Shown: positions 27,277-47,858 of the stretch, piece by piece | Position numbering within the stretch: position 1 is the first letter of the stretch | Layout of the letters: every line of letters begins with the position of its first letter | NCBI RefSeq assembly: GCF_017104565.1 | Contig: NZ_JAAGPD010000035.1 | Span: forward strand, 62,001 to 126,000 | Origin: Paraburkholderia sp. Tr-20389 | Lineage (GTDB): Bacteria; Pseudomonadota; Gammaproteobacteria; Burkholderiales; Burkholderiaceae | DNA: 64,000 nucleotides | Direction of reading: 5' to 3' | Program-made: the position numbers and the translations under genes | The notes under the pieces: model-generated | Databases searched by the model: none | What the model was told of the DNA's origin: nothing | What the model saw: only the letters and a program-made list of their open reading frames with translations

Positions 27277-27727
27277 GGCTTTGTCCCGGTATCCGATTCA
27301 AAAGGCCAACACTGTTGCAGACTCTTTTGCATCAACCGGGCCATGAACGCTAAGCTCATGATTTATCTTGGAATTTAGCCATGAACGGGTGATCTGCGAG
27401 GGTTCGGTGTAGGGATTCGACCAACAGAATTTCTGGCGATTGTGTTGTCCACGCACCATCACATTTCGCCGCTCGCGCGAGCCGCGCAGGTGAGAGGAAT
27501 GTGTTGGCTATCCCATCGCTTGCCGCGCGGCGCTGTTGGACGACTGCCAACGTGTTGCGCCTCTCGCGCGCGACGCGTATGCGCGCGTGCTTCCGCTATC
27601 GCCCGCCCAGCAAGCGCCCGCGAAAAAGTGCCTGCACGCGCCGCAAATTGGCACAGCCCTTGCACCTTATGTCGCAACTTCCCTTTGAATTGCGGCCGCA
27701 TGACGGGCGGCCAACCGGAGACACACC
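27277..27727. other. regulatory spacer between LRAT-like gene and first secretion peptide
   Basis: No gene is supported. It contains a consensus sigma-54 promoter (27649-27664) and a hairpin in the resulting untranslated leader with arms 27694-27699 and 27707-27712. Confidence 0.6.
27649..27664 (+). promoter_or_regulatory. sigma-54 (RpoN) promoter, perfect consensus
   Basis: TGGCACAGCCCTTGCA matches TGGCACR-N4-TTGCW at every defined position. The predicted transcription start is near 27675, 53 bases before the start of the double-glycine peptide gene. The same gene region encodes a sigma-54 activator (28813-30165), the obvious candidate regulator. Confidence 0.85.
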
Positions 27728-28012
27728 ATGGCATCCATCACCATCGACGACATTCCTCACAACCTCGCGCTCGATCGCAAGGCCATGTCCGCCATCAGCG
27801 GCGGCGGCGGCGCGCCGTGGGTATTCGGCTGGATCACGCCGTATGTGCACGACACGCCGAGCGTCGGCCCTGTCGTGAACCTGTACGACGTCACGAACAA
27901 CTTCTATGCTAACCAGATGATCAACCAGTTCCAGACGGTCGACGTTCGCAACACCGGCAACAACTCGAGCATCAACGTGACTCCTGACGCCAACAGTACG
28001 AACCGGGCTTAG
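27728..28012 (+). CDS. double-glycine leader secreted peptide (paralogue 1)
   Basis: A 94-residue protein. The N terminus TIDDIPHNLALDRKAMSAIS ends in Gly-Gly, with Leu at -12, Met at -7 and Ile at -4 relative to the cut, the classic pattern for C39-peptidase exporters. A four-Gly run makes the exact site ambiguous. The core is Asn-rich, lacks Cys and contains NQMINQFQTVDVRNTGNNSS, resembling the cores at 40026 and 46263. GGAG lies seven bases before ATG. Five bases separate its stop from the PP2C phosphatase gene. Confidence 0.85.
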   Translation: MASITIDDIPHNLALDRKAMSAISGGGGAPWVFGWITPYVHDTPSVGPVVNLYDVTNNFYANQMINQFQTVDVRNTGNNSSINVTPDANSTNRA

Positions 28013-28017
28013 ATGCC

Positions 28018-28788
28018 GTGACCTGTATCAGCCAATTCCGCTGGGCTTCCGCAGCGCGCTCCGACACGGGCCGCGTGCGCGAGATCAACGAGGACGCCTG
28101 CCTCGACCAGCCGCAGCACGGCCGCTGGGCCGTGGCTGACGGCATGGGCGGACACGATGTCGGCGATCTCGCGAGCCAGCTCGTGATCGAGACACTCGGC
28201 CAGTTGCCGGAACAGACAGGAATCAAGCATTGCATCGCCGATGCGCGGGTGCGCCTGCAGAACGCAAACCGTCAGTTGCGTGAAGAAGCGAGCCGCAGGC
28301 AGGTGCAGCGTATCGGCACGACCGTTGTCGTGCTGCTCGCGTGCGACCGCTTCTGCGGCTACCTGTGGGCCGGCGACAGCCGTATCTATCTGTTGCGGCA
28401 AGGGCAGTTGCGCCAGCTGACGCGCGATCACAGCCAGGTGGAAGAACTCCGGCAGTCCGGCCATCTGACCGATGAGGAAGCGCGCAATCATCCGGCACAC
28501 AACATCATCACGCGAGCCGTCGGCGCGACCGATCATCTCGATCTCGACGAAGACGCGATCGAAGTCGCGGACGGCGATGTGTTTCTGCTGTGCAGCGACG
28601 GCCTGAGCAACGAAGTGACGGACGCCGAAATCCAGCAGACGCTGGCAAGCGTCGATTGCCTTCATGCACCCGGCGAACTCGTCGATATCGCGCTGGCGCG
28701 CGGCGGACGCGACAACATCACGGCCGTCGTCGTACAGGCGGAAGACCCGCAAGCATCAGACAAAACGCTGCTCAATCCGGCACCCTGA
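28018..28788 (+). CDS. PP2C-family protein serine/threonine phosphatase
   Basis: A 256-residue stand-alone phosphatase with the metal-binding motifs of the PPM family: NEDACLD, VADGMGGHDVGD, LWAGDSRIYL, LLCSDGLSNEV and GRDNITAVVV. It resembles PppA of type VI secretion and PstP/Stp. GTG 28018 starts five bases after the peptide stop, so it should share the sigma-54 promoter. It probably reverses phosphorylation by the Ser/Thr kinase at 43742-45868, with the FHA protein as phospho-reader. It is convergent with the sigma-54 activator gene, 24 bases apart. Confidence 0.9.
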   Translation: MTCISQFRWASAARSDTGRVREINEDACLDQPQHGRWAVADGMGGHDVGDLASQLVIETLGQLPEQTGIKHCIADARVRLQNANRQLREEASRRQVQRIGTTVVVLLACDRFCGYLWAGDSRIYLLRQGQLRQLTRDHSQVEELRQSGHLTDEEARNHPAHNIITRAVGATDHLDLDEDAIEVADGDVFLLCSDGLSNEVTDAEIQQTLASVDCLHAPGELVDIALARGGRDNITAVVVQAEDPQASDKTLLNPAP

Positions 28789-28812
28789 TACGTCGATCCG
28801 GCGACGGGCGCG

Positions 28813-30165
28813 TCATCCTATGTCGGCTTCGTCGTTCGCTTCCTCGTCGTCCTTGCGCGCATTCGCTTGCGCGTGCGCGCGCCGGAAATCCTTCGAATGC
28901 AGGCCGTGCTTCTTCAGCAACATCTGAAGATGCGAACGGTTCATGTCGACGCGGCGCGCCAGTTCCGCGACCGTCCCGCCCACTTCCTGCAAGCCGCGTT
29001 GCAGGAAGGCCTTCTCGGCTTCGTCGCTGGCGGCGCGCTTCGCGTCGCTGAGCGACAGCAGGTTCGTCACGTTTGCCGTGCCGTTCGCCGCTTCATTCGC
29101 GACACCGAATATCGATGCCGCAACGGGTGACGTGGGCCGCATATCCGTCGGCAGATGATCGACGTCGGCAATATCGCCCGCCAGACACGAGATGCGGTAC
29201 ATCACGTTGCGCAGTTCGCGGATATTGCCGGGATACGCATACGTCAGCAGAAAGTCCCTCAATTTAGGCGTGATTCTGACCGGACGGCGTTTCAGCGCGC
29301 CCGCCGCTTCATCGCCGAAGTATTGAATGAGCAGAGGGATTTCATCGCGCCTTTCGCGCAGCGGCGGCAATGTCACGTGAATGACGCTGAGCCGGTAGAA
29401 AAGATCTTCGCGGAACGTGCCCTGCTCGCTCAACTTGCGCAGATTGCGGTTGGTCGCCGCGACGATGCGCGTGTCGACGCCGATCGGTTCGTCCGATCCG
29501 ACGCGCTGTATTTCATGCGCTTCCAGCACGCGCAGCAGTTTCACCTGCCCCGTCAAAGGCAACTCGCCGATTTCGTCGAGAAAGATCGTCCCCGTATGCG
29601 CGCTTTCGAACTTGCCTTTACGATCGTTTGTCGCGCCCGTGAAGGCGCCCTTTCTGTGCCCGAACAGCTCCGACTCCAGCAGATTGTCGGGGATCGCGCC
29701 GCAATTGACGGAGATAAACGGCTTGTCCGAGCGACTGCCGTTCGCGTGGATGACCTTTGCCATCAGCTCCTTGCCGGTACCGCTCTCGCCGTCGATCAAC
29801 ACGGGCAGATCGGTCGGCGCGGCCTTCTCCGAAATTTCGAGTGCTTCCAGCAGTTTCGGATTGTCGCCGAACGTGCCCTCGAAGATAAAGCTGCGCGCAA
29901 GCAGCGCCTGGCGTCGCGCGCCGCGCGACTGGTCGCCGCGCAATGGCTCGACGACGGCCGCCTGCACGAAGCGCTCCTTGTGCGACATCTGCATCACTTC
30001 GTCGCGCAACGAACTCGCCTGTTTCAGGAGCTTTTCGATGTCCGCCCTTTCGAGCCGCGACGACCAGCGCAGCGTCGAACGCAGGATCTCGATCTTCTCG
30101 ATCAACCCCGCATACGAGAGGGCCGAGCCGCTTTCATCAGGCTGCTGGTCAAGTATCTTCATCAT
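28813..30165 (-). CDS. sigma-54-dependent transcriptional activator
   Basis: A 450-residue bacterial enhancer-binding protein: an unusual N-terminal region (about 1-95, helical, no receiver, GAF or PAS pattern), an AAA+ domain (about 96-330) with Walker A GESGTGKE, GAFTGA loop that contacts sigma-54, and LDEIGELP, then a Fis-type helix-turn-helix near the C terminus (GTVAELARRVDMNRSHLQMLL). Its ATG overlaps the exporter stop by four bases, so it is made together with the exporter. It is the likely activator of the sigma-54 promoters at 27649, 40396 and 46163, giving positive feedback. Confidence 0.92.
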   Translation of the reverse strand: MMKILDQQPDESGSALSYAGLIEKIEILRSTLRWSSRLERADIEKLLKQASSLRDEVMQMSHKERFVQAAVVEPLRGDQSRGARRQALLARSFIFEGTFGDNPKLLEALEISEKAAPTDLPVLIDGESGTGKELMAKVIHANGSRSDKPFISVNCGAIPDNLLESELFGHRKGAFTGATNDRKGKFESAHTGTIFLDEIGELPLTGQVKLLRVLEAHEIQRVGSDEPIGVDTRIVAATNRNLRKLSEQGTFREDLFYRLSVIHVTLPPLRERRDEIPLLIQYFGDEAAGALKRRPVRITPKLRDFLLTYAYPGNIRELRNVMYRISCLAGDIADVDHLPTDMRPTSPVAASIFGVANEAANGTANVTNLLSLSDAKRAASDEAEKAFLQRGLQEVGGTVAELARRVDMNRSHLQMLLKKHGLHSKDFRRAHAQANARKDDEEANDEADIG

Positions 30166-33100
30166 GCGCTCAGCTGTTTCTGGACGAGCTGGTAGTACAT
30201 GCCCTTCCGGTTGACCAGTTCCTCATGACGCCCCTGCTCGACGATCGCGCCTTCATAGAGCACCAGAATCTTGTCGGCGCGCATGATCGTGCTGAGCCGG
30301 TGCGCAATGATGACGGCCGTGCGTCCCTTGAGGATGTCGTGCATGTTGCTGAGAATGTTGCTTTCCGATTGTGTGTCGAGTGCCGACGTTGCTTCGTCGA
30401 ACACGAGCAGCCGCGGATCGTGATACAGCGCGCGAGCGATGCACAGCCGCTGTATTTGCCCGCCCGACAAGCCGATGCCGCGTTCACCCACGATCTGCTC
30501 ATAGCCGAGCGGCAGCTTCGCAATGAATGCGTGTGCGTCGGCCATCTTCGCGACTTCCTCGATGCGGCGCCGGTCAGGCGTGTCGTCGCCACTCGCGATG
30601 TTCTCCGCAATCGTGCCGGAGAACAGCAGATTGGTCTGCATCACATAGCCGATCTGCGCGCGATAGAACGCCTTGTCGATCACGTTCATGTCGTAACCGT
30701 CGACGGTCATCTTGCCTTCGCTCGGCGTATAGAAACCGACCAGCAGCTTCGCGAGCGTGGTCTTGCCCGACCCGCTTCGTCCGACGATCGCGATGAGTTC
30801 GCCCGGTTTGATATCGAAGCTGATGTTCTCCAACACGTACGCGCTGTCGGTGTCGCCATAGCGGAAGTAGACGCCGTTCAGGCCGATCTCGCCTTGCAGG
30901 TCCGGCAGCATCACGCGTGAAGGCAGATCCTCGGGCTTCTGCTCGGGCTCGATATCCAGCACGTCGCCCAGCCGCTCCATCGCGACACCCGCATCGTTGA
31001 GCATGCTCCACAAACCGACGAGCCCCATCAACGGCGACAGCACGCTGCCCATGAATGCATTGAACGCAATGAGCTGACCGATCGTCATCTCACGCGCGAG
31101 CACGAGATTTGCGCCGACCCAAAGAATCGCGATGGTCGTCGCCGCGTTCAGCAACTGGCTGATGAAGCCGATCAGAATGTTGAAGGCGTGTGCGCGGTAC
31201 TGCACTTCGAGCGCTTTCGCGTACTTCTTCTCCCAGCGCAAGCGAACGGGCCGTTCGATGCCCATGCCTTTCACCGTTTCGACGCCAGACAACGCCTCCA
31301 TCAGGAAAGACTTCGAATCCGTCGCGGCCGCGAATGTCTCACGCGCATAGTTCTTGATCTTGGGCGTCGCGATCAGTGTGAGCGCCATGATGGGGATGAC
31401 GAACGCGATCAGCACGAAGGTCATTTTCGCGTTGTAGAAGAACATGATCGCGAAGTAGATGAATACCATCAGCAGATTGAGCGCCGTCGTCACGGTCGAC
31501 TCGGTCAGAAACGCGCGGATCGTCTGGTTCTCCTGGAAGCGCGCGAAAATATCGCCCGTCTTGCGTTTGGCAAAGAACGAGAACGGCAGCGACATCGTGT
31601 GCCTGAAGAACTGCGACATCATCGCGAAGTCCATGTTGCGCACCATGAAGTTCGACAGGTACGCGCGGATCATCGACATCAGCTGCGAGAACACGTTTGA
31701 AATGATCAGACCGAGTATCAGCAGATGCAGCAGGCTGATGTTCTGATGCACGATCACGCCGTCCAGAATGTTCTGGATGATCAACGGCGGAATCACGCCT
31801 AGCACCTGGATCACGAAGGTCGCGAGGAACAGATGCAGCAAGATTTTCTTGTACGGCGTCAGATAGCCGATAAAGCGCAGCCACGGCGAACGCGACGCCG
31901 ACAGCTGCACGAGATTCGGCCCCGGCGCGAACAACAGACAGGTGCCGCTCCAGCCGCGCTCGAAATCTTCGAGGCTTAGCTTGCGGAAGCCCAGCGCGGG
32001 ATCGGCGAGCCACACGTGATCTTTCGACACGCCGTACACGATGATGTAGTGATAGCCTTCCCAGTGCACGATGAACGGCAGATCGAAGCCGCGCAATGAA
32101 TCGAACGTGCACTGCACGCCGCGCGCCGAGAAGCCGAGCGATTCACCCGCGCGGGCCAGACTGTCGAGCGTCGCGCCCTGTGTCGTCACATTCGCGAGTT
32201 CGCGCAGCTTGCCGAGCGTCATCGGAATGCCGTAGTGCTTGCAGATCATCGCGAGACAAGCGGCACCGCAGTCCATCTCCTCGGCCTGTTCGACGAGGCC
32301 GAAGCGGCGGATCACCCGTTCGCCCAGTTCCGGCTTCGTGTGCAGATCGAGTCGCAGCGGCATCTTGCGCCGCTGCTCGATGCGCTTTTGCCGGTCCAGT
32401 TCCCGGTCCGCATACTTGATGCGCTCGTCGAGCACCTCGCGCAACTTGGGATTGCGTTCGAGAATGAAATGCACCGTGCGCTCGGGAATCACGAGCAGCC
32501 GCGTATCCGTCGTCGCGATCGCCGACGCCGTCTGCTCCTGCCGCATCAGGCACGCCTTCTCGCCGAAGATCTCGCCTTCGCGCAGGGTGGCGAGCGTGTA
32601 GTCGTTGCCGTCCTCGTGGCGCACGATGCGCACTTCGCCTTGCCGCACCACATAAAGCCGCCGGTCGTCGCGCGCGTCCTGCTTGAGAATTTCCTTGCCC
32701 GCGGCGACGCGCTTGACGCCCACGCTGCGCACATACTCTTCCAGTTCCTGCTTGTTCAGCTTGCCGCGCAGATCGAATAGCTGGGCAACGAATCCGCCCG
32801 CCGAATTGATCGCAACATAGCTCGCGACGAATGCGAGTGCCGCCTGATTCCCTGCGATGATCGACTCGATCGCCGCGCGCGGAATGAACAGCAGTTCGGT
32901 CTTGCCCGACGAGCGCACGGACGATTCATGCACGTAGGCGCGCAGCATCGCGATGTCGGCGAAGACCTCCGTCGTCTTGCGCACGCCCATGCTGATCTCT
33001 TTACCGTGCTCTTCGGTGAAGATACGCACCGAACCGGACTTGATCACATAGAGACCGTCCGCCGGATCACCGACGTTGCACACCGTTTCGCCAAACGAAT

Positions 33101-33218
33101 AGAAGCGCGATTGCACATGCTCCGCGATGCGTTCGAGTTCTTCGCGCGTGAACGGCGACAGTATCTCGACCGTCGACAGGAAGTCGGCAGTGGAAGGCGT
33201 GGTTTGCGGTGCATCCAT
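30162..33218 (-). CDS. C39-peptidase ABC exporter with two cyclic-nucleotide-binding domains
   Basis: A protein of about 1018 residues. Two CRP-like nucleotide-binding domains come first (about 15-130 and 150-270; ILKQDARDDRRLYVVRQGEV, GEIFGEKACLM). Then a C39 peptidase domain with catalytic Cys in EEMDCGAACLAM (near 317), His in VHWEGYHY (near 381) and Asp in LADPALG. Then an exporter membrane domain (about 455-740) and an ATPase with GRSGSGKTTL, LSGGQIQRLC and LLVFDEATSALD. It should cut double-glycine leaders and export the cores. The order is like HetC of cyanobacteria. ATG 33218 is preferred over TTG 33239. Confidence 0.95.
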   Translation of the reverse strand: MDAPQTTPSTADFLSTVEILSPFTREELERIAEHVQSRFYSFGETVCNVGDPADGLYVIKSGSVRIFTEEHGKEISMGVRKTTEVFADIAMLRAYVHESSVRSSGKTELLFIPRAAIESIIAGNQAALAFVASYVAINSAGGFVAQLFDLRGKLNKQELEEYVRSVGVKRVAAGKEILKQDARDDRRLYVVRQGEVRIVRHEDGNDYTLATLREGEIFGEKACLMRQEQTASAIATTDTRLLVIPERTVHFILERNPKLREVLDERIKYADRELDRQKRIEQRRKMPLRLDLHTKPELGERVIRRFGLVEQAEEMDCGAACLAMICKHYGIPMTLGKLRELANVTTQGATLDSLARAGESLGFSARGVQCTFDSLRGFDLPFIVHWEGYHYIIVYGVSKDHVWLADPALGFRKLSLEDFERGWSGTCLLFAPGPNLVQLSASRSPWLRFIGYLTPYKKILLHLFLATFVIQVLGVIPPLIIQNILDGVIVHQNISLLHLLILGLIISNVFSQLMSMIRAYLSNFMVRNMDFAMMSQFFRHTMSLPFSFFAKRKTGDIFARFQENQTIRAFLTESTVTTALNLLMVFIYFAIMFFYNAKMTFVLIAFVIPIMALTLIATPKIKNYARETFAAATDSKSFLMEALSGVETVKGMGIERPVRLRWEKKYAKALEVQYRAHAFNILIGFISQLLNAATTIAILWVGANLVLAREMTIGQLIAFNAFMGSVLSPLMGLVGLWSMLNDAGVAMERLGDVLDIEPEQKPEDLPSRVMLPDLQGEIGLNGVYFRYGDTDSAYVLENISFDIKPGELIAIVGRSGSGKTTLAKLLVGFYTPSEGKMTVDGYDMNVIDKAFYRAQIGYVMQTNLLFSGTIAENIASGDDTPDRRRIEEVAKMADAHAFIAKLPLGYEQIVGERGIGLSGGQIQRLCIARALYHDPRLLVFDEATSALDTQSESNILSNMHDILKGRTAVIIAHRLSTIMRADKILVLYEGAIVEQGRHEELVNRKGMYYQLVQKQLSA

Positions 33219-33252
33219 GATGCTTGCGGTCCCCGGCAACAGCGCGTGTCAG

Positions 33253-34005
33253 TCAGAGCGCTTCGATGATGTGTTCCTGCGCGCGCGTCATCAGCCACTG
33301 TTCGCGCAACAGCCGTTTGATCTCCGACGCGACATCCGCATCGAGCTGCGCCGGATACTTCGCCGTCACCGCGAAGATCTCGAAGCACGAGCGGTCCGGC
33401 GAAGCGAACGGCCCCAGCAGATCGCCCACCCCTGCATTGAAGATCTTCGCCTCGATATCCGGCTTCAGCGAACCGCGCAACACCTTGCCGATCACGCCGC
33501 CCGAATCTTTCGTATCGGCGATCGAATGCTCGCGCGCCATCTCGGCGAATGCGTCGGGATCGTCGTGCAGATACGAGATCATTTCCTTGGCCTTGCCTTC
33601 GTCGTCGAGCAGGATGTGGCTTACTTCCAGCGCGTCGAACTTGGGGGAATTCATCGAAAAGTACTCTTCGATCTCGCCGTCGCTGCCCACCTTGTCGAGC
33701 ATCTTTTCCTGGTACAGGCCGTCCGTGATGAACGCCTCGAAGTCGTCGAGGGTGATCTTCAGCGTATCGAGGTACTGGTTCATGTCGGCCGCACGATGCA
33801 GCCCCCGCACGCGGCGGAACTGGTCGGCGCGCTCCTGGATCTCATCGGCGCTCACGGTCACGCCGTGCTTCTTCGCGGCGTGCACGGCCAGCTTGTCGCG
33901 CACCATCTGCTCGATCAGGCTCTCGAACTGGCCCGTGAGTTTCAGTAGACGTATGAATTCGCCGACATCCACGACTTCATCATCGATTCGTACGATCGCG
34001 GTCAT
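33253..34005 (-). CDS. PpiC-type peptidyl-prolyl isomerase, no signal peptide
   Basis: A 250-residue SurA/PpiC-like protein: an N-terminal helical chaperone part (about 1-120) and a parvulin domain (about 125-225: EVSHILLDDEGKAKEM, AREHSIADTKDSGGVIGKVLRG, FEIFAV). No signal peptide is present, so unlike SurA it may act in the cytoplasm, perhaps holding peptide precursors for the exporter. AGGAG precedes ATG 34005. It lies between adaptor and exporter genes, an arrangement known for some C39 exporter loci. Confidence 0.9.
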   Translation of the reverse strand: MTAIVRIDDEVVDVGEFIRLLKLTGQFESLIEQMVRDKLAVHAAKKHGVTVSADEIQERADQFRRVRGLHRAADMNQYLDTLKITLDDFEAFITDGLYQEKMLDKVGSDGEIEEYFSMNSPKFDALEVSHILLDDEGKAKEMISYLHDDPDAFAEMAREHSIADTKDSGGVIGKVLRGSLKPDIEAKIFNAGVGDLLGPFASPDRSCFEIFAVTAKYPAQLDADVASEIKRLLREQWLMTRAQEHIIEAL

Positions 34006-34103: not shown

Positions 34104-35477
34104 CTATCCGGCCAGTTGCCTGAACGGGTCCAGCCCCAGATCGATCAATCGCCGTTCGCGCACGACGATTTCGGCACTCGCCGTCATGCCGTAACGCAGC
34201 GGATAACGGTTTTCTGCGATCTGGTAGTAGTTCTTGTCGAGTTGAACGCGGCCTTCATAGACAGGCTGCTTGTCCTGCCCCGACGGCTTGGTCGCCGGCG
34301 AGATGTACGCGAGCGTGCCGTTGATCAGACCATAGCGCTGATACGGGAACGCGTTGAATTTCAGCTTGACGGTCATGCCTTCGTGCAGGAACGCGCGGTC
34401 GCGCTCGGCAATCTCGATCTTCAGAACGGGGCGCGCGTCCTTCGGCGCAATGCCGCCGAGCGGCGCATTCGCCTGGATCTTGTCGCCCGTTTGCGTCGAC
34501 GTGACATCCGTGATGACGCCCGAAGTCGGCGCGAGTATCAGCAGAAAGTTGTCCTTGTCGATGTTCTCGAAGCGGATGCGCGCGGCGGCTTCGGCCACGA
34601 GGCGCGCCGTCTGCAATTGCAGGCGCAGCTTCTCTTCCGTGCTGGTGATGTCGCGGATCAAATCATCGTATTGAAGCTGCAGCGTCGTGGCCTGCTGGCC
34701 GCTCGTTTCGAGTTGCGCGTTCGCTTCTGCATATTCGTGACTCAGCTTGAAGTCGAGTTCGGTGAGTCGCGATTGCGCGACACGGTACGCGTTTTCCGCT
34801 TCCATGTAGGTATTGCGCTTCGCCTCCACCTGCAACTCGGCGACACCGCCGCCGCCGGGCTGCGCGAACAGGCGCGCGTATTTGTCCGCTTCCTGGCGCG
34901 CCGCATCGCGTGCGCGGCGCGCGTTGTCGAGCGTGCTGCGCGCTTCTTCCAGTTGCGCTTTCTGGCCTTCGGCGAGCTTCGTCGTCCCTTCGGAAATGCG
35001 GTTTTCGTGCAGACGCTCTTCGACTTCGAGCTGATCCTTAAGCGCGGCCGCCTTGCGTTCCATCAGTTCTTTTTTCTGCGGAAACTCTTTCCACTCGCGC
35101 TCGGCGTCTTCGAGTTTCAGCTGTGCCTGGAGCGCATTGGTGGCCGCTTCGATGGCTCCGCGCGCGTTGATCCGCGCGAGCACGTCGCCCTTCGAAACCG
35201 GCTGCCCTTCGGCGATATACAGGTCGGTGAGTTCGCCGTCGATAGGCGCATAGATGCGCCGCACGTCCGATTCCGGCGCGAGCGTGCCCTGCGCCGTGAC
35301 GATCACGTCCGCGCGCCCGAAGAACGACCACAACAGACCCGCGACGACGAGCCCGACCATCGCCAGCACGAGCGCCTGCGCGATGCGCACGGGTTCCGCC
35401 GTGAGAATCTCCACGCCCTCGGCGCTGTGATCTTCGAGCGCTTCGTAGAGCGGCTTAGGGTGATTGTCGCGCTTCAC
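34104..35477 (-). CDS. HlyD-family periplasmic adaptor
   Basis: A membrane-fusion protein of about 457 residues: short cytoplasmic N terminus, transmembrane helix (about 33-53), lipoyl halves (PIDGELTDLYIAEGQPVSKG and LAPTSGVITDVTSTQTGD) around a long coiled-coil hairpin (about 105-290), and a beta-barrel domain. It should bridge the inner-membrane ABC exporter to the NodT/TolC-like channel. The start is uncertain: TTG 35495, GTG 35486 and GTG 35477 are in frame. GGAGG lies 11 bases before 35477, the choice made here. All overlap the FHA gene end. Confidence 0.92.
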   Translation of the reverse strand: MKRDNHPKPLYEALEDHSAEGVEILTAEPVRIAQALVLAMVGLVVAGLLWSFFGRADVIVTAQGTLAPESDVRRIYAPIDGELTDLYIAEGQPVSKGDVLARINARGAIEAATNALQAQLKLEDAEREWKEFPQKKELMERKAAALKDQLEVEERLHENRISEGTTKLAEGQKAQLEEARSTLDNARRARDAARQEADKYARLFAQPGGGGVAELQVEAKRNTYMEAENAYRVAQSRLTELDFKLSHEYAEANAQLETSGQQATTLQLQYDDLIRDITSTEEKLRLQLQTARLVAEAAARIRFENIDKDNFLLILAPTSGVITDVTSTQTGDKIQANAPLGGIAPKDARPVLKIEIAERDRAFLHEGMTVKLKFNAFPYQRYGLINGTLAYISPATKPSGQDKQPVYEGRVQLDKNYYQIAENRYPLRYGMTASAEIVVRERRLIDLGLDPFRQLAG

Positions 35478-39983: not shown

Positions 39984-40011
39984 CCGCGGAGGCTGGTCTG
40001 AACCTCCGCGG
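39984..40011 (-). other. hairpin between peptide gene and outer-membrane factor gene
   Basis: CCGCGGAGG (39984-39992) pairs with CCTCCGCGG (40003-40011). It lies 14 bases after the peptide stop on the minus strand, without a T-run. A partial stop or mRNA-stabilising hairpin here would let the peptide be made in excess over the export machinery. Confidence 0.5.
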
Positions 40012-40025
40012 ATAACGCCGTGTGC

Positions 40026-40295: not shown

Positions 40296-40617
40296 GACAG
40301 TTCTCCTAAGAGGGAAGCGAAGATTCGCTAAGGTGTTTCGGGTTTGGGTTCGAGCATCTTGTCTGCTCGAGCCTTACTAACGCATAGGCTGTGCCAATTG
40401 CCCTGCCAGAACCGCGAAAAACCTGCGAAGCCTTGCTGCCATTGGGTTGTGAGTCAGACCGCATTTGCGCATACGAATTTCATGGGCTTTGATCAGACCA
40501 CCAGGTGCCGTCGTACGGCCAACATTCGACGCGAAACTGTTGGATTGCTAAAGACATCACCGGGAACATGCATGAAAACAGCGCTAAAACACTCGGCTAT
40601 TGAGCACACACGTTCGT
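40296..40617. other. divergent-looking spacer with sigma-54 promoter and long leader
   Basis: Contains the minus-strand sigma-54 promoter, a conserved untranslated leader of about 75 bases, and, further upstream, a block (about 40417-40440) shared with the region before the peptide at 46263. No gene is supported. Confidence 0.6.
40381..40396 (-). promoter_or_regulatory. sigma-54 promoter of the peptide-exporter gene set
   Basis: On the minus strand TGGCACAGCCTATGCG has a perfect -24 element and the invariant GC of the -12 element at correct spacing. The predicted start is near 40370. The whole promoter-leader block is almost identical to that before 46263. Confidence 0.8.
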
Positions 40618-41046
40618 TCACTTTGCGATCACTGTGATCTTCTTCGAATAGACCGGCGGGTCGTGCGGAATGTGATTTTCGTCGCCCATCAGCAACTGGA
40701 GCGTGTGCTTGCCGGGCGGCAAGGTAATCGTCGTTTCCGTTTCGCCCGCACCGAAATGCAGATGCTGGCGATCCGATGGAATCTCCTGGTCCATCGGCGG
40801 CAAGTCCGTGTCGATCAGCAGATGATGGTGGCCTGTGTTCGCATACTTGACGCCCTTGGGCGCGACGCCCATGTAGCGCAAGCCGAACCACACACGAAAC
40901 GGCTTGTTGGCGGGCACGACCTGTCCGTCGTTCGGATAGCCGATATAGGCGTGGGCATCCTTGGGTGCCGGCGTCGGCCCGGCGAACGCCATATTCATCG
41001 AAGCGAGAGCGGCAAGCGCCGCAGCGGCAACAACGTTCCTGATCAT
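40618..41046 (-). CDS. DUF4399-like periplasmic protein (copy 1)
   Basis: A 142-residue protein with a signal peptide ending at AFAGPTP and a beta-rich body with GHHHLLIDTDLPPMDQEIP, HLHFGAGETE and LPPGKHTLQLLMGD. These are features of the DUF4399 family. The His cluster and acidic residues could bind metal. ATG 41046 follows GGAG. A paralogue lies 63 bases upstream on the same strand. Function is unknown. Confidence 0.85.
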   Translation of the reverse strand: MIRNVVAAAALAALASMNMAFAGPTPAPKDAHAYIGYPNDGQVVPANKPFRVWFGLRYMGVAPKGVKYANTGHHHLLIDTDLPPMDQEIPSDRQHLHFGAGETETTITLPPGKHTLQLLMGDENHIPHDPPVYSKKITVIAK

Positions 41047-41109: not shown

Positions 41110-41535
41110 TCACTTCACGATGATGGTGATCTTCTTCGAATAGACGGGCGGATTGTGCGGCACGTGGTTGAAGTCGCCGAGCAGCAGTTGCAGCGTATGT
41201 TTGCCGGGCGGCAGTTCGATGCGCGCATCCGTTTCGCCTGCGCCAAAATGCAGGTGATTCCGGTCAGAGGGAATTTCCTGATCCATCGGCGGCAGGTCCG
41301 TGTCGATCAGCAGATGATGATGTCCCGTGTTCGGCACATTGACGCCTTTAGGACACACGCCCATATTGCGCAAGCCCATTCGCACCCAGAGCTTGCCGCC
41401 CGTAATGACGGTGCCGTCCGCCGGCCAGATGATGTACGTCTCCGCGCCGGGCGGCGAAGGCGTCGGGCCTGCCAATACCTGCGCCGAAGCGAGAAAGAGC
41501 GCGCCGATAGCCGCGAGCCTTATTCTTCTTTGCAT
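41110..41535 (-). CDS. DUF4399-like periplasmic protein (copy 2)
   Basis: A 141-residue paralogue of the previous gene, sharing GHHHLLIDTDLPPMDQEIPS and the C-terminal PPVYSKKITI. The signal peptide ends near VLAGPTP. GGAG lies seven bases before ATG 41535. The two probably form one transcript, this copy first. A single Cys (GVCPKGV) is present here but not in copy 1. Confidence 0.85.
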   Translation of the reverse strand: MQRRIRLAAIGALFLASAQVLAGPTPSPPGAETYIIWPADGTVITGGKLWVRMGLRNMGVCPKGVNVPNTGHHHLLIDTDLPPMDQEIPSDRNHLHFGAGETDARIELPPGKHTLQLLLGDFNHVPHNPPVYSKKITIIVK

Positions 41536-41797: not shown

Positions 41798-43699
41798 ATG
41801 TGGCGAAAACTCCTGCTGGTATGCATGATCGGGGCACTCCAGATGCGAGGAGCCGACGCGCAAACGCTGCCGCACGGCGCGCGCGATGCCACTTCCCATA
41901 TTGCTGCAAACGATGCGCTGAGCGGCCGCACTGAAACGGAGACACGCAAGGTCGCGCTCGTGATCGGCAACGCGAGCTATTCTTTTGGCGCGTTGCCCAA
42001 TGCATCGCGCGATGCGCAAAGCGTCGCCGATATGTTGCGCGCGCAAGGCTTCGATGTCGTGCTTCGCACCGATGCAAGCGCACAGCAGATGCGTGACGCA
42101 CTCGCCGATTTCCGCCGCCGCTTGCAGCCGGGCGGCATCGCCCTGTTCTATTTCGCGGGCCACGGCTTTCAGGCGGGAGCCAACACGCGACTGGCATCCA
42201 CTTCCGCCGATACGCATGCGCCGGCCACGTTGATGACGGACAGCATCGACCTGTCGAGCGTGTTCGACACACTCGCCGCGCCGCGCGCACATGCACTCAA
42301 TCTGATGGTGCTGGATGCATGTCTTACGCAACCATTCGAGCCCGCCCGCCTCACGACGTCTTTGCCCGCGCAAACCCTGATTGCATACGCGACGGCGCAA
42401 GGCGGCGAGGCCGCCGATGGAACCCGTCATGGCATCTTCACGGGCGCATGGCTGCGTGAAATGCACCGTGCGCCGGATGAACCCGTCGACACGATGTTCG
42501 CTCACGTAGCGCGACGCGTCACGGAAGAAACAGACGGCGTGCAACGCCCGTGGTCCGCGTCGTCGTTGACGGAACCCCTGCGTGTTTTCGCTTCGGTCGA
42601 TCAGCCGATGCAAGCCGACGATCAGGCGAACCTGGTTGTTGCATTGAACAGCCGCGGCATCTTGCCTAAAGACAGCAACGAGCAATATGAACTGACATTC
42701 TGGGAATCGATCAAGGACAGCAATTACGCGAGCGACTATGAAGCGTATTTGAAGGCGTATCCGAATGGCCGCTTTGCGACGCTCGCGAAGGCGCGTATCG
42801 ACAGGCTCAAGGCCTCCGGGCAGACAGCGCCGCCTGCGACGCACGCGGCGCCCGCATCCGCGCCGCCGCACCCTGCTGCTGCGGCGCCAACGCCTGCACC
42901 AGCGCCCGCTCCGCAAGCCGCGCCTAAGGCCGCTGCAACGCCTGCTCCGGCACCCACGCCGGCGCCCGCGCACGCAGCCGCTGGCGGCGAGAGCAAGGAC
43001 TGCGCGGCATGCCCCATGATGGTCTCGCTACCGGCGGGCTCCTTCACGATGGGCAGCAATTCCGACGATCCCTCCGAGAAGCCGCCGCATCGCGTGACCA
43101 TTTCAGCGCCGTTCGCGATCGGCAAATACGAAGTGACCGTCGAGCAATGGAACGCCTGCGCGGACGTCAACGGATGCCCGAAGCTGGCAACGGAAAGCAA
43201 TTCCGTGAAGAACGCACCCGCGCGCGATCTCAGTTGGGACGATGCGCAGGCCTACGTAAAATGGCTGAGCAAGGTCACGGGCAAGACGTATCGTCTGCCG
43301 ACGGAAGCCGAATGGGAATACGCGGACCGTGCCGGCACGACGACGAAGTACTGGTGGGGCGACTCGATGCGCAAAGGCATGGCCAATTGCAAGGACTGCG
43401 GCGATCCGTATCACAAGGAGGCGCCTGAGCCGGTGGGCAGTTACGCGGCGAATCCGAATGGCTTGCACGACATGAACGGCAGCGTGTGGGAATGGGTCGG
43501 CGATTGCTGGCATAACTCATACCAGGGCGCGCCCAATGACGGCCATGCGTGGGACGCGCCGGGCTGCAACATGCGCGTGATTCGCGGCGGCTCATGGCGC
43601 GAAGGCGGTGACTACATGCTGACGTCGACGCGCTTCAAGTACAGCCAGAGCGTGCGTCAGTCGCAAGACGGCTTTCGCGTCGTGAAAGAACTCAAGTGA
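41798..43699 (+). CDS. exported caspase-like / FGE-like fusion protein
   Basis: A 633-residue protein with a signal peptide (to about 22), a peptidase C14 caspase-like domain (about 45-270) with catalytic His in FYFAGHGFQ and Cys in [10 protein letters not shown], then a helical part, a Pro/Ala linker (about 345-400), and an FGE-sulfatase/SUMF1-like domain (about 405-630: [43 protein letters not shown]). The final part lacks the two catalytic Cys of true formylglycine-generating enzymes, so it is probably a binding module. It is convergent with the kinase gene and may be part of the secretion system's signalling; unproven. Confidence 0.88.
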
Positions 43700-43713: not shown

Positions 43714-43745
43714 AAGCCCGAGCAGATCGGCGCGGGCTTTCTCAA
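43714..43745. terminator. bidirectional terminator between fusion protein and kinase genes
   Basis: AAGCCCG (43714-43720) pairs with CGGGCTT (43733-43739), followed on the plus strand by TCTC and flanked by short A and T tracts. It lies in the 42-base gap between two convergent genes. Confidence 0.6.
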
Positions 43746-45868
43746 TGCGCGCGCGCCTTGCTCGTGATCTGCGCGAAGTCCGCGACGATATGGTCCTGGC
43801 CGTATTTGGCGGCAAGCTGTTTGAGCCGTGCATCGAGTGCGCGCAGATAGTCCGCACGCGATTCGCTTTCGGGACGCGGCGCATCGAATAGCGGTGCAGG
43901 CGTGATCAGCAGGACGACCATCTCCTGTCCGAACGGCTTCGAAATGATCCAGTCCCCGCCGCTGCCCACAGTTGCCGAGTAGTTCGCGGGCGCCTGATTC
44001 CCCGACACGCGCGGCCCCGGCACCATATGCACGACACTGCCGTCGAGCACGTAATAATCGATGTTCACATACGAGTCGTAGCCCGGCGTCCTGACATCGA
44101 CGACGAGCGGATCGCCCTCGGTGAGCACGCCATTTGGCATGCGCGCCGTCAGCGACGCGATGTGTCCCGCCTGCCAGTTATGCGTCCAGTACGAGCCGAG
44201 TTGCTTGAGCACGTCGCATTTGTCGCTGCTCACGTGCTGCACGTCGACCTTCGTCGACGCAACGCCGGGCAGGGTTCCGAGACGCTCGTTGACTTGCGCT
44301 TCGCCATGCTGCGGCACGAATCCGCGCACCTGTACCGCGCGATCCTGGATCTGCGAGGCGAGCGCCGAACACGGTAACGACGCGAGCGCCGAGGTGACGG
44401 CCGCGAGTGTCGGAGGCGCCGGCGGCGCTGGCGTGCTGGAGGGCGGCGCGGACGCGACTTCAGGCTTCGACGGCACGACAGGCGTGATGGGCTGCACAGG
44501 GGTCGCGCCGCCGACCTGTGATCCACCCGCATCGGACGCGGCACTCGTCTGCTGCGTTGCATTCTCCTGTTCGAGCGTCCGCGACGCGCGATAGAAGTAC
44601 AGCGCGCCGCCCGCCGCGCACGCGAGCGCGAGTCCCGCCACACCGGACTTCATCAGCATGCCGGTGCGATCGGTGCTCCCCGTGGACTTCGACGCGGACG
44701 CACGCTCCTGCGCACCGAACTCTTCGACGAAGCGCGACACCGTCGGCGTACGCGCCTTGCGATCGAATGCCAGTGCCGCGCGCAATGCGCGCCATTGACG
44801 GTTGCCCAGGTTGTCCGGCCGCTGCGGCTGGCGATTCGACGCGCGTGCCTGCGTCGCCGATTGACGGTCGAACGGATGACGGCCGGTCAACAACTCGTAG
44901 GTGATGCAGCCAAGCGCGTAGATGTCGTCGCGCGGATCGGGCTCGAGATGTTCGAGCATTTCCGGGCTCGCATACGCAGGCGTCAACGCGCCGAGGCTGC
45001 CCGGATCGAACACGGTGGCATCGCTCTCTTCCTCGGGACGCTGAAACACGCGTGCGATGCCGAAATCGATGACCTTGACCTCGCCCGTGTCGGTGAGGAA
45101 CACGTTGGCGGGCTTGAAGTCGCAATGCACGAAGCCGCGCTCGTGCGCATACGCGAGCGCGCTCGACATGCCGCGGACGATCGGCAGCGCGGACTGAACG
45201 GGCATGCCCTTGAAATCCGGCGTGCGCAGTATCTGGCTGAGCGGCTTGCCGGACAGATACTCCATCGTCAGATAGACGATCGCGCCGTCGCGGTCGAAGT
45301 CGTAGACGGTGACGATGTTGCGATGCGCGAGCACCTGCGCCTTGCGCGCTTCGCGCTGCAATGCGATCAGCGACTTGGGGTTGCCGCGGAACTGCGTATT
45401 CAGCACCTTGATCGCGAGGTATGGCTTGCGGTCCGACGCTTCGAGCTTGCGCAGATCGAGCGCCTTGTACACGGTGCCCATGCCGCCCACACCCAGACAT
45501 TCTTCGAGCACGAAGCGGTTGTTCAGCGTATCGCCCGTGCCCTTCACCTGATCCAGGTTCGAGGCGGGCACGTCATTCGTGCGGCCCGGCGGCGGCGAGA
45601 CGAGATGCTCGGGCACCGTCTGCATGCGCGTTTCCTCGCCGCCCGCCGCGGCAAGATGCGACACGGGCATCTGTTCGATACGGCGGCGCACTTCCGCGTA
45701 GAGATCGGGAGGCAACGGCTTCCTGACCTGCGCTTCGCCGAGTATTTCGAGCAGACGAGCCGAGCCGACACCTTCCGTTGTGAGCGTGCTGTCGAGTTGA
45801 GCGACGAACGCGTCCTGCGTAAGCGCGCCGCTCTGAAAGTCCCGAATCACGTGCGCAAGGCTGGCCAT
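43742..45868 (-). CDS. transmembrane serine/threonine protein kinase
   Basis: About 708 residues. A helical N-terminal region (about 1-110), then a Hanks-type kinase domain (about 125-380) with GVGGMGTVYKA, Lys in LAIKVL, catalytic HCDFKPAN, DFG in VIDFGIAR and APE-like ASPE. A transmembrane helix (about 412-430) leads through a Pro-rich linker to a periplasmic part with a BON-like segment (VNERLGTLPGV) and a DUF4384-like end (LTEGDPLVVDV, NIDYYVLDG). It should phosphorylate the FHA-containing partner. It reads like PpkA/PknB kinases. A TTG at 45922 would add 18 residues; ATG 45868 was preferred. Confidence 0.9.
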   Translation of the reverse strand: MASLAHVIRDFQSGALTQDAFVAQLDSTLTTEGVGSARLLEILGEAQVRKPLPPDLYAEVRRRIEQMPVSHLAAAGGEETRMQTVPEHLVSPPPGRTNDVPASNLDQVKGTGDTLNNRFVLEECLGVGGMGTVYKALDLRKLEASDRKPYLAIKVLNTQFRGNPKSLIALQREARKAQVLAHRNIVTVYDFDRDGAIVYLTMEYLSGKPLSQILRTPDFKGMPVQSALPIVRGMSSALAYAHERGFVHCDFKPANVFLTDTGEVKVIDFGIARVFQRPEEESDATVFDPGSLGALTPAYASPEMLEHLEPDPRDDIYALGCITYELLTGRHPFDRQSATQARASNRQPQRPDNLGNRQWRALRAALAFDRKARTPTVSRFVEEFGAQERASASKSTGSTDRTGMLMKSGVAGLALACAAGGALYFYRASRTLEQENATQQTSAASDAGGSQVGGATPVQPITPVVPSKPEVASAPPSSTPAPPAPPTLAAVTSALASLPCSALASQIQDRAVQVRGFVPQHGEAQVNERLGTLPGVASTKVDVQHVSSDKCDVLKQLGSYWTHNWQAGHIASLTARMPNGVLTEGDPLVVDVRTPGYDSYVNIDYYVLDGSVVHMVPGPRVSGNQAPANYSATVGSGGDWIISKPFGQEMVVLLITPAPLFDAPRPESESRADYLRALDARLKQLAAKYGQDHIVADFAQITSKARAH

Positions 45869-46110
45869 GTGTTCAAAGCGCTGCAGCTCCCGTTGATCGA
45901 AGAATTTCCCTGTCGTAACCAATTACATGTGCTCGTTCGATAGTAGCCCGCACGTATGCCTTTCGCAAACCAGGATTGGCCCGCGACACGGCGGGTGTCA
46001 TGTGTCGCGATGCATCCAACAGCTTCGAGCGCTCAGTTGGCCGCTCGCCATCAGCTTTCCGGTACCGCTTTGGCTCGAAGCGCTCTGCCCCAAACACCCT
46101 CTGTATCGCG

Positions 46111-46131: not shown

Positions 46132-46162
46132 GCGCATTTTTTCGCCGACCTGCTCGCATGAC

Positions 46163-46178
46163 TGGCACAGCCTATGCG
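46163..46178 (+). promoter_or_regulatory. sigma-54 promoter of the second peptide cluster
   Basis: TGGCACAGCCTATGCG, identical to the promoter before the exporter gene set. The predicted start near 46189 coincides with the first base of a seven-pair stem-loop (46189-46195 with 46203-46209). Confidence 0.8.
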
Positions 46179-46262: not shown

Positions 46263-46532
46263 ATGAGCGCACTGATGATCAAAGACCTGTCCGTTACCGA
46301 ACAACTCGACAGCAAGGCCATGAAGGCCGTTCGCGGTGGCTTCGTTAGCTACCCGTACTTCCCCAGCCTCAAATTCGACTTCGACAACAGCAAGACGGTC
46401 AGCGCCCAGCAACTTGTAAATCAAGGCCTGAATATCGACAACGTGAGCGACAACAACAACGCTTTCGTTTCGCACCTGCCGACCACGATCAAGCCGACGA
46501 TGAAGGCGAACAACAACGTCACCGTTTCGTAA
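46263..46532 (+). CDS. double-glycine leader secreted peptide (paralogue 3)
   Basis: An 89-residue near copy of the peptide at 40026-40295: leader LMIKDLSVTEQLDSKAMKAV then R-GG, core beginning FVSYPYFPS and ending ANNNVTV. Differences are mostly conservative or in the middle of the core (for example HVDAQQLISQ against TVSAQQLVNQ). AGGAG lies seven bases before ATG 46263. Upstream in-frame codons belong to the leader RNA, not the protein. First of three closely spaced peptide genes. Confidence 0.9.
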   Translation: MSALMIKDLSVTEQLDSKAMKAVRGGFVSYPYFPSLKFDFDNSKTVSAQQLVNQGLNIDNVSDNNNAFVSHLPTTIKPTMKANNNVTVS

Positions 46533-46623
46533 GACACCACACGCAGTCGACGGGGACCGGGAGCGCCACTTGTCCGGCGCTTCCGGGCAAACAGCTGCCA
46601 ACCTATTTCCTTGGAGAACGATT

Positions 46624-46908
46624 ATGTCGTCCATCATGATTCGCGATATCGACGGCCAGCGCACGCTCGGCCGCCACGAAATGTCCGCCGTGTCGGGCGG
46701 TACGGGAACGCCCGGCCTGACCGGCAACTCGTGGCTCGCGGGCCTCGGCCCCGTCGCCAACGTCAACATCGGCATCAACCAGAACATCACGCAGGCGCAG
46801 TTCATCAACGTCGAAACGCTGAACGGCAGCATCGTCGGCCCCGGCGTGAAGCTGCCGAGCATCAACCTCAGCCCGAAGCTTGTGGCCAATACGAACGCTC
46901 TGGTGTGA
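46624..46908 (+). CDS. double-glycine leader secreted peptide (paralogue 4)
   Basis: A 94-residue protein. Leader SIMIRDIDGQRTLGRHEMSA then VS-GG keeps Leu at -12, Met at -7 and Val at -4. The core (TGTPGLTGNSWLAG onward) contains GINQNITQAQFINVETLNGS, echoing the Gln/Asn/Ile/Val pattern of the other cores, and has no Cys. GGAG precedes ATG 46624; the start inside an upstream frame at 46570 is not needed. It lies 91 bases after paralogue 3 and probably shares its transcript. Confidence 0.85.
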   Translation: MSSIMIRDIDGQRTLGRHEMSAVSGGTGTPGLTGNSWLAGLGPVANVNIGINQNITQAQFINVETLNGSIVGPGVKLPSINLSPKLVANTNALV

Positions 46909-47085
46909 CAGCGCGCTGTCGTGGAGGACCGGGGGCCTCCGCACAGCGTCCGCAATGCTCGCCAGCCCACACCGCAGCGAGCCTGAATTACCTATACTGG
47001 TTGTTCGAGTCCTACGCGTTGCCGTCATCGATCGAAGCGCACATCGGTCGCGACGGCACTACGCGATATTTCTTCTGGAACGGCC

Positions 47086-47310
47086 ATGCCCAAGCTCATC
47101 ATCAAGGATCTTCCCGAAAGCGTCGAACTCGATCGCGCGGCCATGACCGCCATCGTCGGCGGCGCACGAACGGGTGGACGCTTCTTCGGCGTCACCGCGC
47201 AGGCGTTGCCGGCGGCGACGCGCGTCGTCGACTATCCCGTGGGCTTCCCGACGGCCGCACGCCAGCCCGTCGACGAACGCATACCGCCGCAGAGCCTGTT
47301 GCGCAAATAA
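47086..47310 (+). CDS. double-glycine leader peptide (paralogue 5)
   Basis: A 74-residue protein. Leader LIIKDLPESVELDRAAMTAI then V-GG, fitting the family pattern exactly. The core of 48 residues is different from the others: ARTGGRFFGVTAQALP then Pro/Arg-rich, with no Cys. The ribosome site is weak (GGAACGG). The gap to paralogue 4 is 177 bases and has no recognised promoter. Confidence 0.75.
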   Translation: MPKLIIKDLPESVELDRAAMTAIVGGARTGGRFFGVTAQALPAATRVVDYPVGFPTAARQPVDERIPPQSLLRK

Positions 47311-47651
47311 CAGCTGTCTCGCTTCTCGTCATATGCCGCTTGCCTGATGGCTGGCGGCATGTGCTTGCGTGTCCACGCCCGCTAGAGCAAACCGCCCGAC
47401 TCCCCAGCGCGTCTGTTTTATTCCGCCAACTCTGCGCGTGTAGCGGTGCGGCCCTCGCCAACACTTTCTCGTTGCTATCCCGGTCAACCCTGCGTATACA
47501 CGTCGGCCCCGCGCGTTATTCCCTTATGTGGCGGCGCTTTTGAAGCGCAATGTGTGCTGACGCACATTGCGGCTTCAAATCGGCATATGCGTTGCGGCAT
47601 GAAAAGCGAGCGCCGAATCGTGCTCGTCAAACCCGCATCAGGAGAACTGCC
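47311..47651. other. spacer between peptide paralogues 5 and 6
   Basis: No gene is supported. A sigma-54-like sequence lies at 47581-47596, with the nearest start 56 bases downstream. Confidence 0.5.
47581..47596 (+). promoter_or_regulatory. possible sigma-54 promoter of peptide paralogue 6
   Basis: CGGCATATGCGTTGCG has GG and GC at the correct 12-base spacing and an exact TTGC at -12, but the -24 part matches TGGCAC at only four of six positions. Confidence 0.4.
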
Positions 47652-47858
47652 ATGAAAGCCACTGTCATCATCAAGGATCTACCCGCGCCTACCGATCTCG
47701 AACGGAATGAGACCGCACTGACGCCGGAAAAGATGAAACGCATCGTCGGTGGAGCGAGCGTTGCCGTGACTGTCGATGGCACACGGCCAGGTACCGTCGA
47801 TGACTTCGGCATCAACTGCGCTATTTTCGAAGGACGGATCAAGGGGACGATGATCTGA
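47652..47858 (+). CDS. double-glycine leader peptide (paralogue 6)
   Basis: A 68-residue protein. Leader VIIKDLPAPTDLERNE, then TALTPEKMKRIV-GG: the leader is longer by about seven residues but keeps Met at -7 and Ile/Val at -4. The core of about 33 residues has one Cys (INCAIF) and no Asn-rich part. AGGAG precedes ATG 47652, in the same AGGAGAACTG context as paralogues 2 and 3. Confidence 0.75.
   Translation: MKATVIIKDLPAPTDLERNETALTPEKMKRIVGGASVAVTVDGTRPGTVDDFGINCAIFEGRIKGTMI

Follow-up and report, generated by a model that had tools for sequence, protein, structure and literature searches.

In Synechococcus elongatus, the C39 peptidase transporter PteB secretes several co-encoded proteins with double-glycine (GG) leaders, EbfG1-4, and both efficient secretion and biofilm depend on its C39 cysteine (PMC4997328). 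EbfG1-3 are amyloid-forming, and EbfG4 is a protein of the surface and matrix (PMC9981879). In Nostoc PCC 7120, HetC, which is thought to export a signal peptide, carries a cyclic nucleoside monophosphate (cNMP)-binding domain that is needed in vivo and binds ppGpp; cyclic AMP (cAMP) gave no protection (PMC10986499). Cyanobacterial groups I, II and VI, first called bacteriocin clusters, combine a long-type transporter with N-terminal CAP_ED domain, HlyD, a SurA/rotamase protein and GG precursors (PMC3140520). We analysed a stretch of 64 kb (the window) on contig C29 of Paraburkholderia sp. Tr-20389, whose assembly comprises 9.0 Mb in 129 contigs. ORF (open reading frame) calls and Pfam/NCBIfam scans delimit a compact gene set at 27.5-47.9 kb, encoding a C39 exporter, its partners, six GG-leader peptides, a sigma-54 activator and Ser/Thr phosphorylation proteins. 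This locus is real and conserved and is very probably regulated as a unit, and we are confident that it forms one functional unit with sigma-54 control; that exporter, sigma-54 control and phospho-control together make up that unit is probable, with less assurance.

Like PteB/EbfG, the locus encodes a C39 exporter together with several small GG-leader proteins. PteB/EbfG is its best functional precedent; the available descriptions of PteB/EbfG mention no FHA protein, Ser/Thr kinase, PP2C phosphatase or sigma-54 activator. HetC shares with the window exporter the architecture cNMP-C39-ABC (ABC, ATP-binding cassette). In the available text, HetC is described without a neighbouring membrane-fusion gene and without a known substrate, whereas the window offers two cNMP domains, HlyD, NodT and six GG peptides. 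The cyanobacterial groups I, II and VI (Wang et al. 2011) are described, as far as the available text goes, with no phospho-control, sigma-54 part or NodT. In addition, in a region of a Nostoc HK-01 plasmid, HlyD and PpiC accompany an exporter whose annotation reads cyclic nucleotide-regulated. The sequence features of the long-type GG clusters are found in the window: cNMP/CAP_ED, C39 and ABC parts in one protein with intact Cys-His-Asp, and HlyD, PpiC rotamase and GG-leader precursors beside it. A first-pass annotation of this DNA had taken the export parts for standard type I secretion; the exporter is instead not of the HlyB kind but of the cNMP-C39-ABC ('long') kind known from cyanobacteria. 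The same annotation was aware of no system described with the full set. For the export core (long-type exporter, HlyD and rotamase), a known cluster type, this does not hold, and the control layer alone is apparently undescribed; our literature search, of partial coverage and by titles and abstract starts, found no such locus in Burkholderiales.

The exporter and its partners

All parts named by the first-pass annotation were found where it had placed them; to its list we add two DUF4399 proteins, a caspase-FGE protein and the cNMP domains of the exporter. On the minus strand, NodT, the 2xFHA membrane protein, HlyD, PpiC, the exporter and the sigma-54 activator lie in succession. Peptide B1 precedes NodT, and at the opposite end peptide A lies directly before PP2C on the plus strand. 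Past B1 come the two DUF4399 genes, the caspase-FGE gene and the Ser/Thr kinase gene, then the GG peptides B2, C, D and E. The export and control proteins are the following.

28018..28788, plus strand: PP2C Ser/Thr phosphatase (PF13672, 6.5e-16; NF033484, Stp1, 223.1 bits, below the cut-off of 230)
28813..30165, minus strand: sigma-54 activator (PF00158, 5.8e-70; Fis-type helix-turn-helix PF02954, 16.1 bits, below the cut-off of 22)
30162..33239, minus strand: exporter with two cNMP-binding domains, Peptidase_C39, ABC membrane domain and ABC ATPase (Pfam)
33253..34005, minus strand: PpiC-type peptidyl-prolyl isomerase (PF00639, 5.8e-10; TIGR04500, 92.7 bits, cut-off 180)
34104..35495, minus strand: HlyD-type periplasmic adaptor (PF13437, 8.2e-21; TIGR01843, 171.9 bits, cut-off 208.65)
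35455..38013, minus strand: 2xFHA membrane protein (PF00498, 3.1e-30; AlphaFold2 model of the C-terminal part)
38262..39806, minus strand: NodT/TolC-type outer membrane channel (PF02321; TIGR01845, 311.5 bits, above the cut-off of 210.05)
43742..45922, minus strand: Ser/Thr protein kinase (PF00069, 3.8e-41; DUF4384 PF14326, 16.5 bits, below the cut-off of 27)

The exporter, whose true start is probably residue 8, has two cNMP-binding (7.5e-36), Peptidase_C39 (3.5e-40), ABC_membrane and ABC_tran domains in Pfam. Its conservation, like that of the other locus genes, was counted in the best 80 of 270 loci, some stretches of which are cut by contig ends. The C39 catalytic residues C324, H397 and D413 are intact and kept in 80/80 loci, as are the Walker A Lys and Walker B Glu of the ATPase, and the C39 part aligns across the catalytic Cys with solved peptidase-containing transporters (4s0f and others). 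Identity with HlyB or with bacteriocin exporters was rejected on NCBIfam scores below the cut-offs, and so was membership in NHLP bacteriocin export (TIGR03796, 568.6 against a cut-off of 853.3 bits; TIGR03794, 88.1 against 156.2 bits).

At the position that aligns with the Arg of PKG, the second cNMP domain of the exporter carries Gln in all 80 loci, which makes classical cAMP binding unlikely; cAMP is thus disfavoured as the ligand on sequence grounds.

The N-terminal part of the PpiC protein is SurA-like, and since no signal peptide is visible by eye the protein is probably cytoplasmic. Among the scanned locus proteins, no known enzyme modifying ribosomally synthesised and post-translationally modified peptides (RiPPs) scored above cut-off in Pfam or NCBIfam, and membership in a RiPP cluster was rejected on this result; the kinase matches LanL/LanKC models far below cut-off, and the top NCBIfam model of the FGE-like domain, PvdO, is also below. 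The absence of RiPP-modifying enzymes claimed by the first-pass annotation thus stands for these proteins, but it is to be read with care, because MirC, a PpiC relative (TIGR04500), is required for the modification of one graspetide (PMC13097080). According to the available text, graspetide PpiC partners have a C39 exporter and a precursor peptide as neighbours, as in the window (PMC13097080, PMC8939145). The window PpiC stays below the TIGR04500 cut-off (92.7 against 180 bits), and no ATP-grasp ligase was found among the scanned locus proteins.

Co-occurrence with the FHA protein and the kinase

The nearest named relatives of the window are Paraburkholderia, and the soil strain Paraburkholderia xenovorans LB400 carries the locus on chromosome 2 (L050). 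PpiC and the activator are present in 80/80 loci each, HlyD, the FHA protein and NodT in 77/80 each, PP2C in 75/80, each DUF4399 query in 74/80, caspase-FGE in 73/80 and an LRAT-domain protein in 70/80. The kinase lies inside the 10-kb flanks in 1/80 loci and mostly farther out: it was found in 17 of 20 longer upstream stretches (downstream stretches were added for 10), taken from a set of 26 genomes of which 8 are also represented among the 80 loci.

The co-occurrence check proposed by the first-pass annotation was run on 299 genomes of the family, using as queries the N-terminal part of the exporter and the C-terminal parts of the FHA protein and the kinase. The exporter was found in 105 genomes, the FHA protein in 106 and the kinase in 110. 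All 105 exporter genomes hold both the FHA protein and the kinase; the FHA protein occurs in 1 of the 194 genomes without the exporter, and a kinase match, weak in some cases, in 5. The kinase lies at most 22 kb from the exporter in 72 of the 105 genomes. In 11 others the two share a contig but are separated by over 100 kb, and in the remaining 22 they sit on different contigs, in some cases perhaps because of assembly breaks. The accessory genes thus co-occur with the exporter, in line with the first-pass annotation, and Ser/Thr phospho-control of the locus is supported by inference.

Six genomes with records named outside Burkholderiaceae (Noviherbaspirillum, two Aromatoleum, an Oxalobacteraceae, a Rhodocyclaceae and an unplaced Proteobacteria metagenome-assembled genome) all have the FHA protein (51-55% identity) and the kinase, the latter as two pieces in three of them. 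Samples of 399 genomes of the order and 398 of the phylum gave strong matches only in the same three family members, which indicates a patchy distribution outside the family and suggests some horizontal transfer. The cNMP-C39 part was matched in seven phylum-level genomes at 31-34% identity. Six of these were examined, and their exporters are 33-37% identical to the window exporter. An FHA-domain gene adjoins the exporter in 6/6, each above the Pfam cut-off; HlyD is found in 5/6, PpiC in 4/6 and the activator in 3/6, some contigs ending there, and OEP-type channel genes follow the FHA gene in 4/6 (three each in L197, L199 and L202). Judged from these sequences, this exporter class is associated with FHA proteins and activators beyond the Burkholderia relatives as well. 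In L200, a kinase beside the exporter (7913-9403, plus strand) is fused to a cNMP-binding domain.

These data also bear on whether the kinase, PP2C and FHA protein could be stable neighbours, or serve another process, with a system made of exporter, adaptor, channel, PpiC and peptides only. Such a possibility gains from the fact that co-occurrence was measured mostly within one family, that the exporter may sit in a conserved genomic block, and that genes for DUF4399, caspase-FGE and LRAT proteins have likewise been kept beside it. On the other hand, the kinase is retained in 33 of the 105 genomes though far off or on another contig (some perhaps through assembly breaks), 193 of the 194 exporter-less genomes are without the FHA protein and 189 without the kinase, and the FHA gene adjoins even the exporters that are 33-37% identical, in 6/6 cases. 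We regard mere neighbourhood as very unlikely.

Promoters and upstream elements

The sequence elements of the peptide genes, and the peptides themselves, are listed below.

27534..27551, plus strand: putative activator (enhancer) site TGTTGG-N7-CCAAC upstream of peptide A (exact match)
27648..27664, plus strand: sigma-54 -24/-12 promoter TTGGCACAGCCCTTGCA, 80 bases before the start of peptide A (score 31/31, the best of the window)
27728..28012, plus strand: GG-leader peptide A, 94 residues, family A (ORF and leader pattern)
39984..40011, minus strand: hairpin with an 11-bp stem between peptide B1 and NodT (RNA fold of 39930-40040)
40026..40295, minus strand: GG-leader peptide B1, 89 residues, family B (ORF and leader pattern)
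40381..40397, minus strand: sigma-54 promoter of peptide B1, TTGGCACAGCCTATGCG (score 28, joint second in the window)
40519..40543, minus strand: putative enhancer CCAACA-N14-GTTGG upstream of B1 (exact, both strands)
46016..46040, plus strand: putative enhancer CCAACA-N14-GTTGG upstream of B2 (exact match)
46162..46178, plus strand: sigma-54 promoter of peptide B2, CTGGCACAGCCTATGCG (score 28, joint second in the window)
46263..46532, plus strand: GG-leader peptide B2, 89 residues (leader pattern)
46624..46908, plus strand: GG-leader peptide C, 94 residues (leader pattern)
47086..47310, plus strand: GG-leader peptide D, 74 residues (ORF and leader pattern)
47652..47858, plus strand: GG-leader peptide E, 68 residues (leader pattern)

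Sigma-54 sites were scored with weights that are our own approximation of the -24/-12 consensus. Only three sites of the window score at least 27, namely those before A (31), B1 (28) and B2 (28), and they sit 80-102 bases before the peptide starts. Across the 80 loci, on which the main promoter counts were recomputed with the false-positive row L109 17936 dropped, a site of this strength stands in 126/162 peptide upstream regions versus 38/4000 control stretches away from peptides. By peptide family, sites were found for A in 73/79, B in 61/71, C in 1/15 and others in 38/79, which fits operons headed by A or B; these counts come from a larger set with double-counted genomes, as 8 of an additional 26-genome set are also among the 80 loci.

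Upstream of the promoter, the hexamer TGTTGG/CCAACA was detected in 119/126 regions of the 80 loci versus 155/4000 controls. The distance between half-site and -24 box is 100-149 bases for 205 of 228 half-sites. In the window, the half-sites pair up inverted at 27534-27551, 40519-40543 and 46016-46040. The linked activator would be the natural candidate to bind this element. The locus thus combines -24/-12 promoters with an AAA+ activator in which GAFTGA is seen by eye, as expected of a sigma-54 regulon, and the promoters and shared element before the lead peptide genes bear out the earlier view of a coherent locus for GG-peptide export with sigma-54 control.

The stretch 39930-40040, containing the B1-NodT hairpin, has a fold z-score of -5.07. 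The predicted hairpin is a possible attenuator or RNA processing point and could set the peptide:exporter ratio.

The double-glycine peptides

The leader pattern was written after the six window peptides had been seen; it matches exactly these six in the 64 kb, whereas 20 Markov-shuffled versions of the window together gave 2 matches. The cores of A, B1, B2 and C are 63-68 residues long. They have no Cys, 3-6% basic residues and 14-16% Asn, compared with 3.0% Asn in the large locus proteins; charged residues are scarce (4-13%) in cores A-C. Families A and B recur across genera. Family A has the common stretches APW(V/I)(Y/F)GWI and QM-NQFQ-V-V-N. Among Paraburkholderia loci, 34 A cores give a pooled dN/dS of 0.17, and 33 B cores one of 0.37.

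The Asn-rich composition of A-C and the conservation of A and B favour a matrix or surface role over that of bacteriocins. We tentatively propose an extracellular role for the cores as matrix or surface proteins, amyloid-like in the manner of EbfG, and not as toxins, a possibility that falls short of being probable. If the peptides were instead bacteriocins or microcins killing relatives, and the exporter a microcin exporter, the GG leaders and C39 exporter would be typical, and the available text on the closest cyanobacterial clusters shows that they originally bore the bacteriocin name (PMC3140520). Yet the A and B cores are found in more than one genus and, among Paraburkholderia loci, evolve under purifying selection, charged residues are scarce in cores A-C, and the best-studied relative system makes, according to the available part of its report, matrix proteins (PMC9981879); no scanned neighbour was named as an immunity gene, although no search was aimed at immunity genes. 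Killing of relatives therefore seems unlikely.

The peptides might otherwise be signals, the exported cores being sensed by the outer part of the kinase with feedback via PP2C/FHA and the activator. Peptide A lies 5 bases before PP2C and has a strongly conserved core, B2-E adjoin the kinase, and HetC is believed, from the available text, to export a signal peptide (PMC10986499). Several paralogous cores of 60-70 residues are, however, long for a pheromone, and some genomes carry the kinase at a distance from the exporter locus. Signalling is the less improbable of these two alternatives, albeit still rather unlikely.

Elsewhere in the same genome, two further GG-leader genes were seen, on contig C50 at about 49821 (68 residues; L186), with a CCAACA half-site upstream, and on contig C7 at about 167634 (92 residues; L187). 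Their products could be further substrates.

The phospho-control proteins and the activator

The FHA protein has two FHA domains and a single hydrophobic stretch at about residues 354-374 (by eye). AlphaFold2 models its residues 380-852 (the 473 C-terminal residues) as all-helical and TPR-like, with a mean confidence (pLDDT) of 89.6. In a Foldseek search of this part against the PDB, 0/190 matches reached E <=0.001 and only weak TPR-type matches were returned, so that its partner cannot be named. In the kinase, a single hydrophobic stretch is visible by eye, and the sub-cut-off DUF4384 match falls in the C-terminal part. In-frame stops were reported in kinase genes of several genomes of genus g3; in the two inspected, none lies inside the aligned kinase, and the reported stop, being the last aligned codon, is probably the natural gene end. 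The activator is an AAA+ protein with a GAFTGA loop (by eye) and a weak, sub-cut-off Fis-type helix-turn-helix. The best NCBIfam matches of these proteins are the Stp1, PASTA-kinase and NorR models, all below cut-off and none of T6SS (type VI secretion system) type. At the level of single models, PADLOC gives matches for the kinase, PP2C, the activator and the caspase; a reading as anti-phage defence is not favoured.

T6SS clusters can encode a sigma-54 activator such as VasH. Such clusters, in the available portions of the reports, include a membrane Ser/Thr kinase, PP2C, an FHA protein and a sigma-54 activator (PMC5995506, PMC3953482, PMC9993120). The window resembles the T6SS PpkA-PppA-Fha pathway in its kinase, PP2C and FHA genes, at the level of domains and co-occurrence only; unlike in that pathway, the set is attached to a type I exporter, and the family models are not the T6SS versions. 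The first-pass annotation had stated that no T6SS gene is here. The marker TssC is indeed absent from contig C29, on which ground T6SS membership of the locus was rejected, although the genome has TssC at four places (contig C19 twice, C32 and C77), other T6SS genes not having been searched genome-wide. By analogy, the phospho-layer may work like the T6SS threonine-phosphorylation pathway without being a member of it. That kinase, FHA protein and PP2C gate this exporter is, on balance, moderately likely.

Neighbouring genes

Between peptide B1 and the kinase lie three further genes.

40618..41046, minus strand: DUF4399 protein (PF14347, 1.7e-36)
41110..41535, minus strand: DUF4399 protein (PF14347, 1.4e-37)
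41798..43699, plus strand: caspase C14 and FGE-sulfatase-like protein (PF00656, 1.2e-30; PF03781, 9.6e-55)

Judged by eye, both DUF4399 proteins are probably secreted, and the caspase-FGE protein has a probable signal peptide and would be exported. This caspase-C14 and FGE-sulfatase fusion, present in 73/80 loci, may process exported proteins. The LRAT-domain protein (26746-27276, minus strand) likewise accompanies the locus in most relatives. A possible toxin-antitoxin pair borders the peptide group on the minus strand (48223-48657 and about 48670-49000): a helix-turn-helix protein, whose match to the MqsA family is below cut-off, and a small neighbour.

A proposed export pathway and its meaning

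We propose that the locus serves the production and export of several small proteins, most of them rich in Asn. Sequence evidence supports the first steps: sigma-54 promoters and the TGTTGG/CCAACA element precede the lead peptide genes A, B1 and B2, and the GG leaders suit the intact C39 protease of the exporter. The linked activator would bind the element. The cytoplasmic PpiC would then hold the precursors export-competent, the C39 domain would cleave after GG, and ABC-HlyD-NodT would conduct the cores out of the cell. The C-terminal part of the membrane kinase might sense something beyond the cytoplasm; the kinase would phosphorylate a threonine read by the FHA protein, and PP2C would reset it, so that export would be gated post-translation, as PpkA-Fha-PppA gate the T6SS. 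The cNMP domains may provide a third input, whose ligand is probably not classically bound cAMP.

Several observations weigh against this proposal. Peptides D and E, with 0 and 3% Asn, fit poorly into the Asn-rich set. The AlphaFold2 model of peptide B1, built on a 50-row alignment, is of low confidence (pLDDT 62.3), with a short leader helix only and no strands, and no Pfam curlin match was found, so that amyloid receives no direct support. Peptide C genes are without a strong promoter of their own (1/15), and operon read-through is assumed. By the leader pattern, 7/80 loci have no peptide. In the Pfam scan, the activator shows no receiver domain and no recognisable sensor domain through which phosphorylation might reach transcription. 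Common descent inside one family partly limits the proof drawn from co-occurrence counts. In the distant relatives, the FHA proteins are shorter (434-473 residues) and match the window protein around the FHA domains only, and the neighbourhood of the six exporters yielded no convincing GG peptide. The C39 Cys is lost in 3/9 distant homologues (L199, L200 and L192, on a Skermanella plasmid), the His being lost as well in L199 and L200; from their sequences, these exporters probably bind but do not cut cargo. Given the missing GG peptide and the lost Cys, the deep link with FHA proteins is no proof of GG export there.

Among the loci, L038, L039, L040, L076 and L088 are present with the leader pattern unmatched, perhaps through leader variants.

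Extended further, our proposal tentatively describes a general Proteobacteria type I class, for which the case is suggestive and less than even: a cNMP-C39-ABC exporter would be switched by a threonine-phosphorylation relay of membrane kinase, FHA membrane protein and PP2C, and in the Burkholderia relatives the paralogous, mostly Asn-rich substrates would form a sigma-54 regulon. Control in the style of the T6SS would here have been grafted on or separately invented, probably for building extracellular matrix.

If this is true, FHA-read threonine phosphorylation would control a type I exporter, of which our literature search, by titles and abstract starts, found no description. The locus raises the questions of what the cNMP domains of this exporter class sense and how kinase-FHA relays talk to secretion machines, and it bears on whether GG-protein export for biofilm matrix extends beyond cyanobacteria. 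Many plant- and soil-associated bacteria would then hold a hidden set of secreted small proteins with a defined regulatory code.

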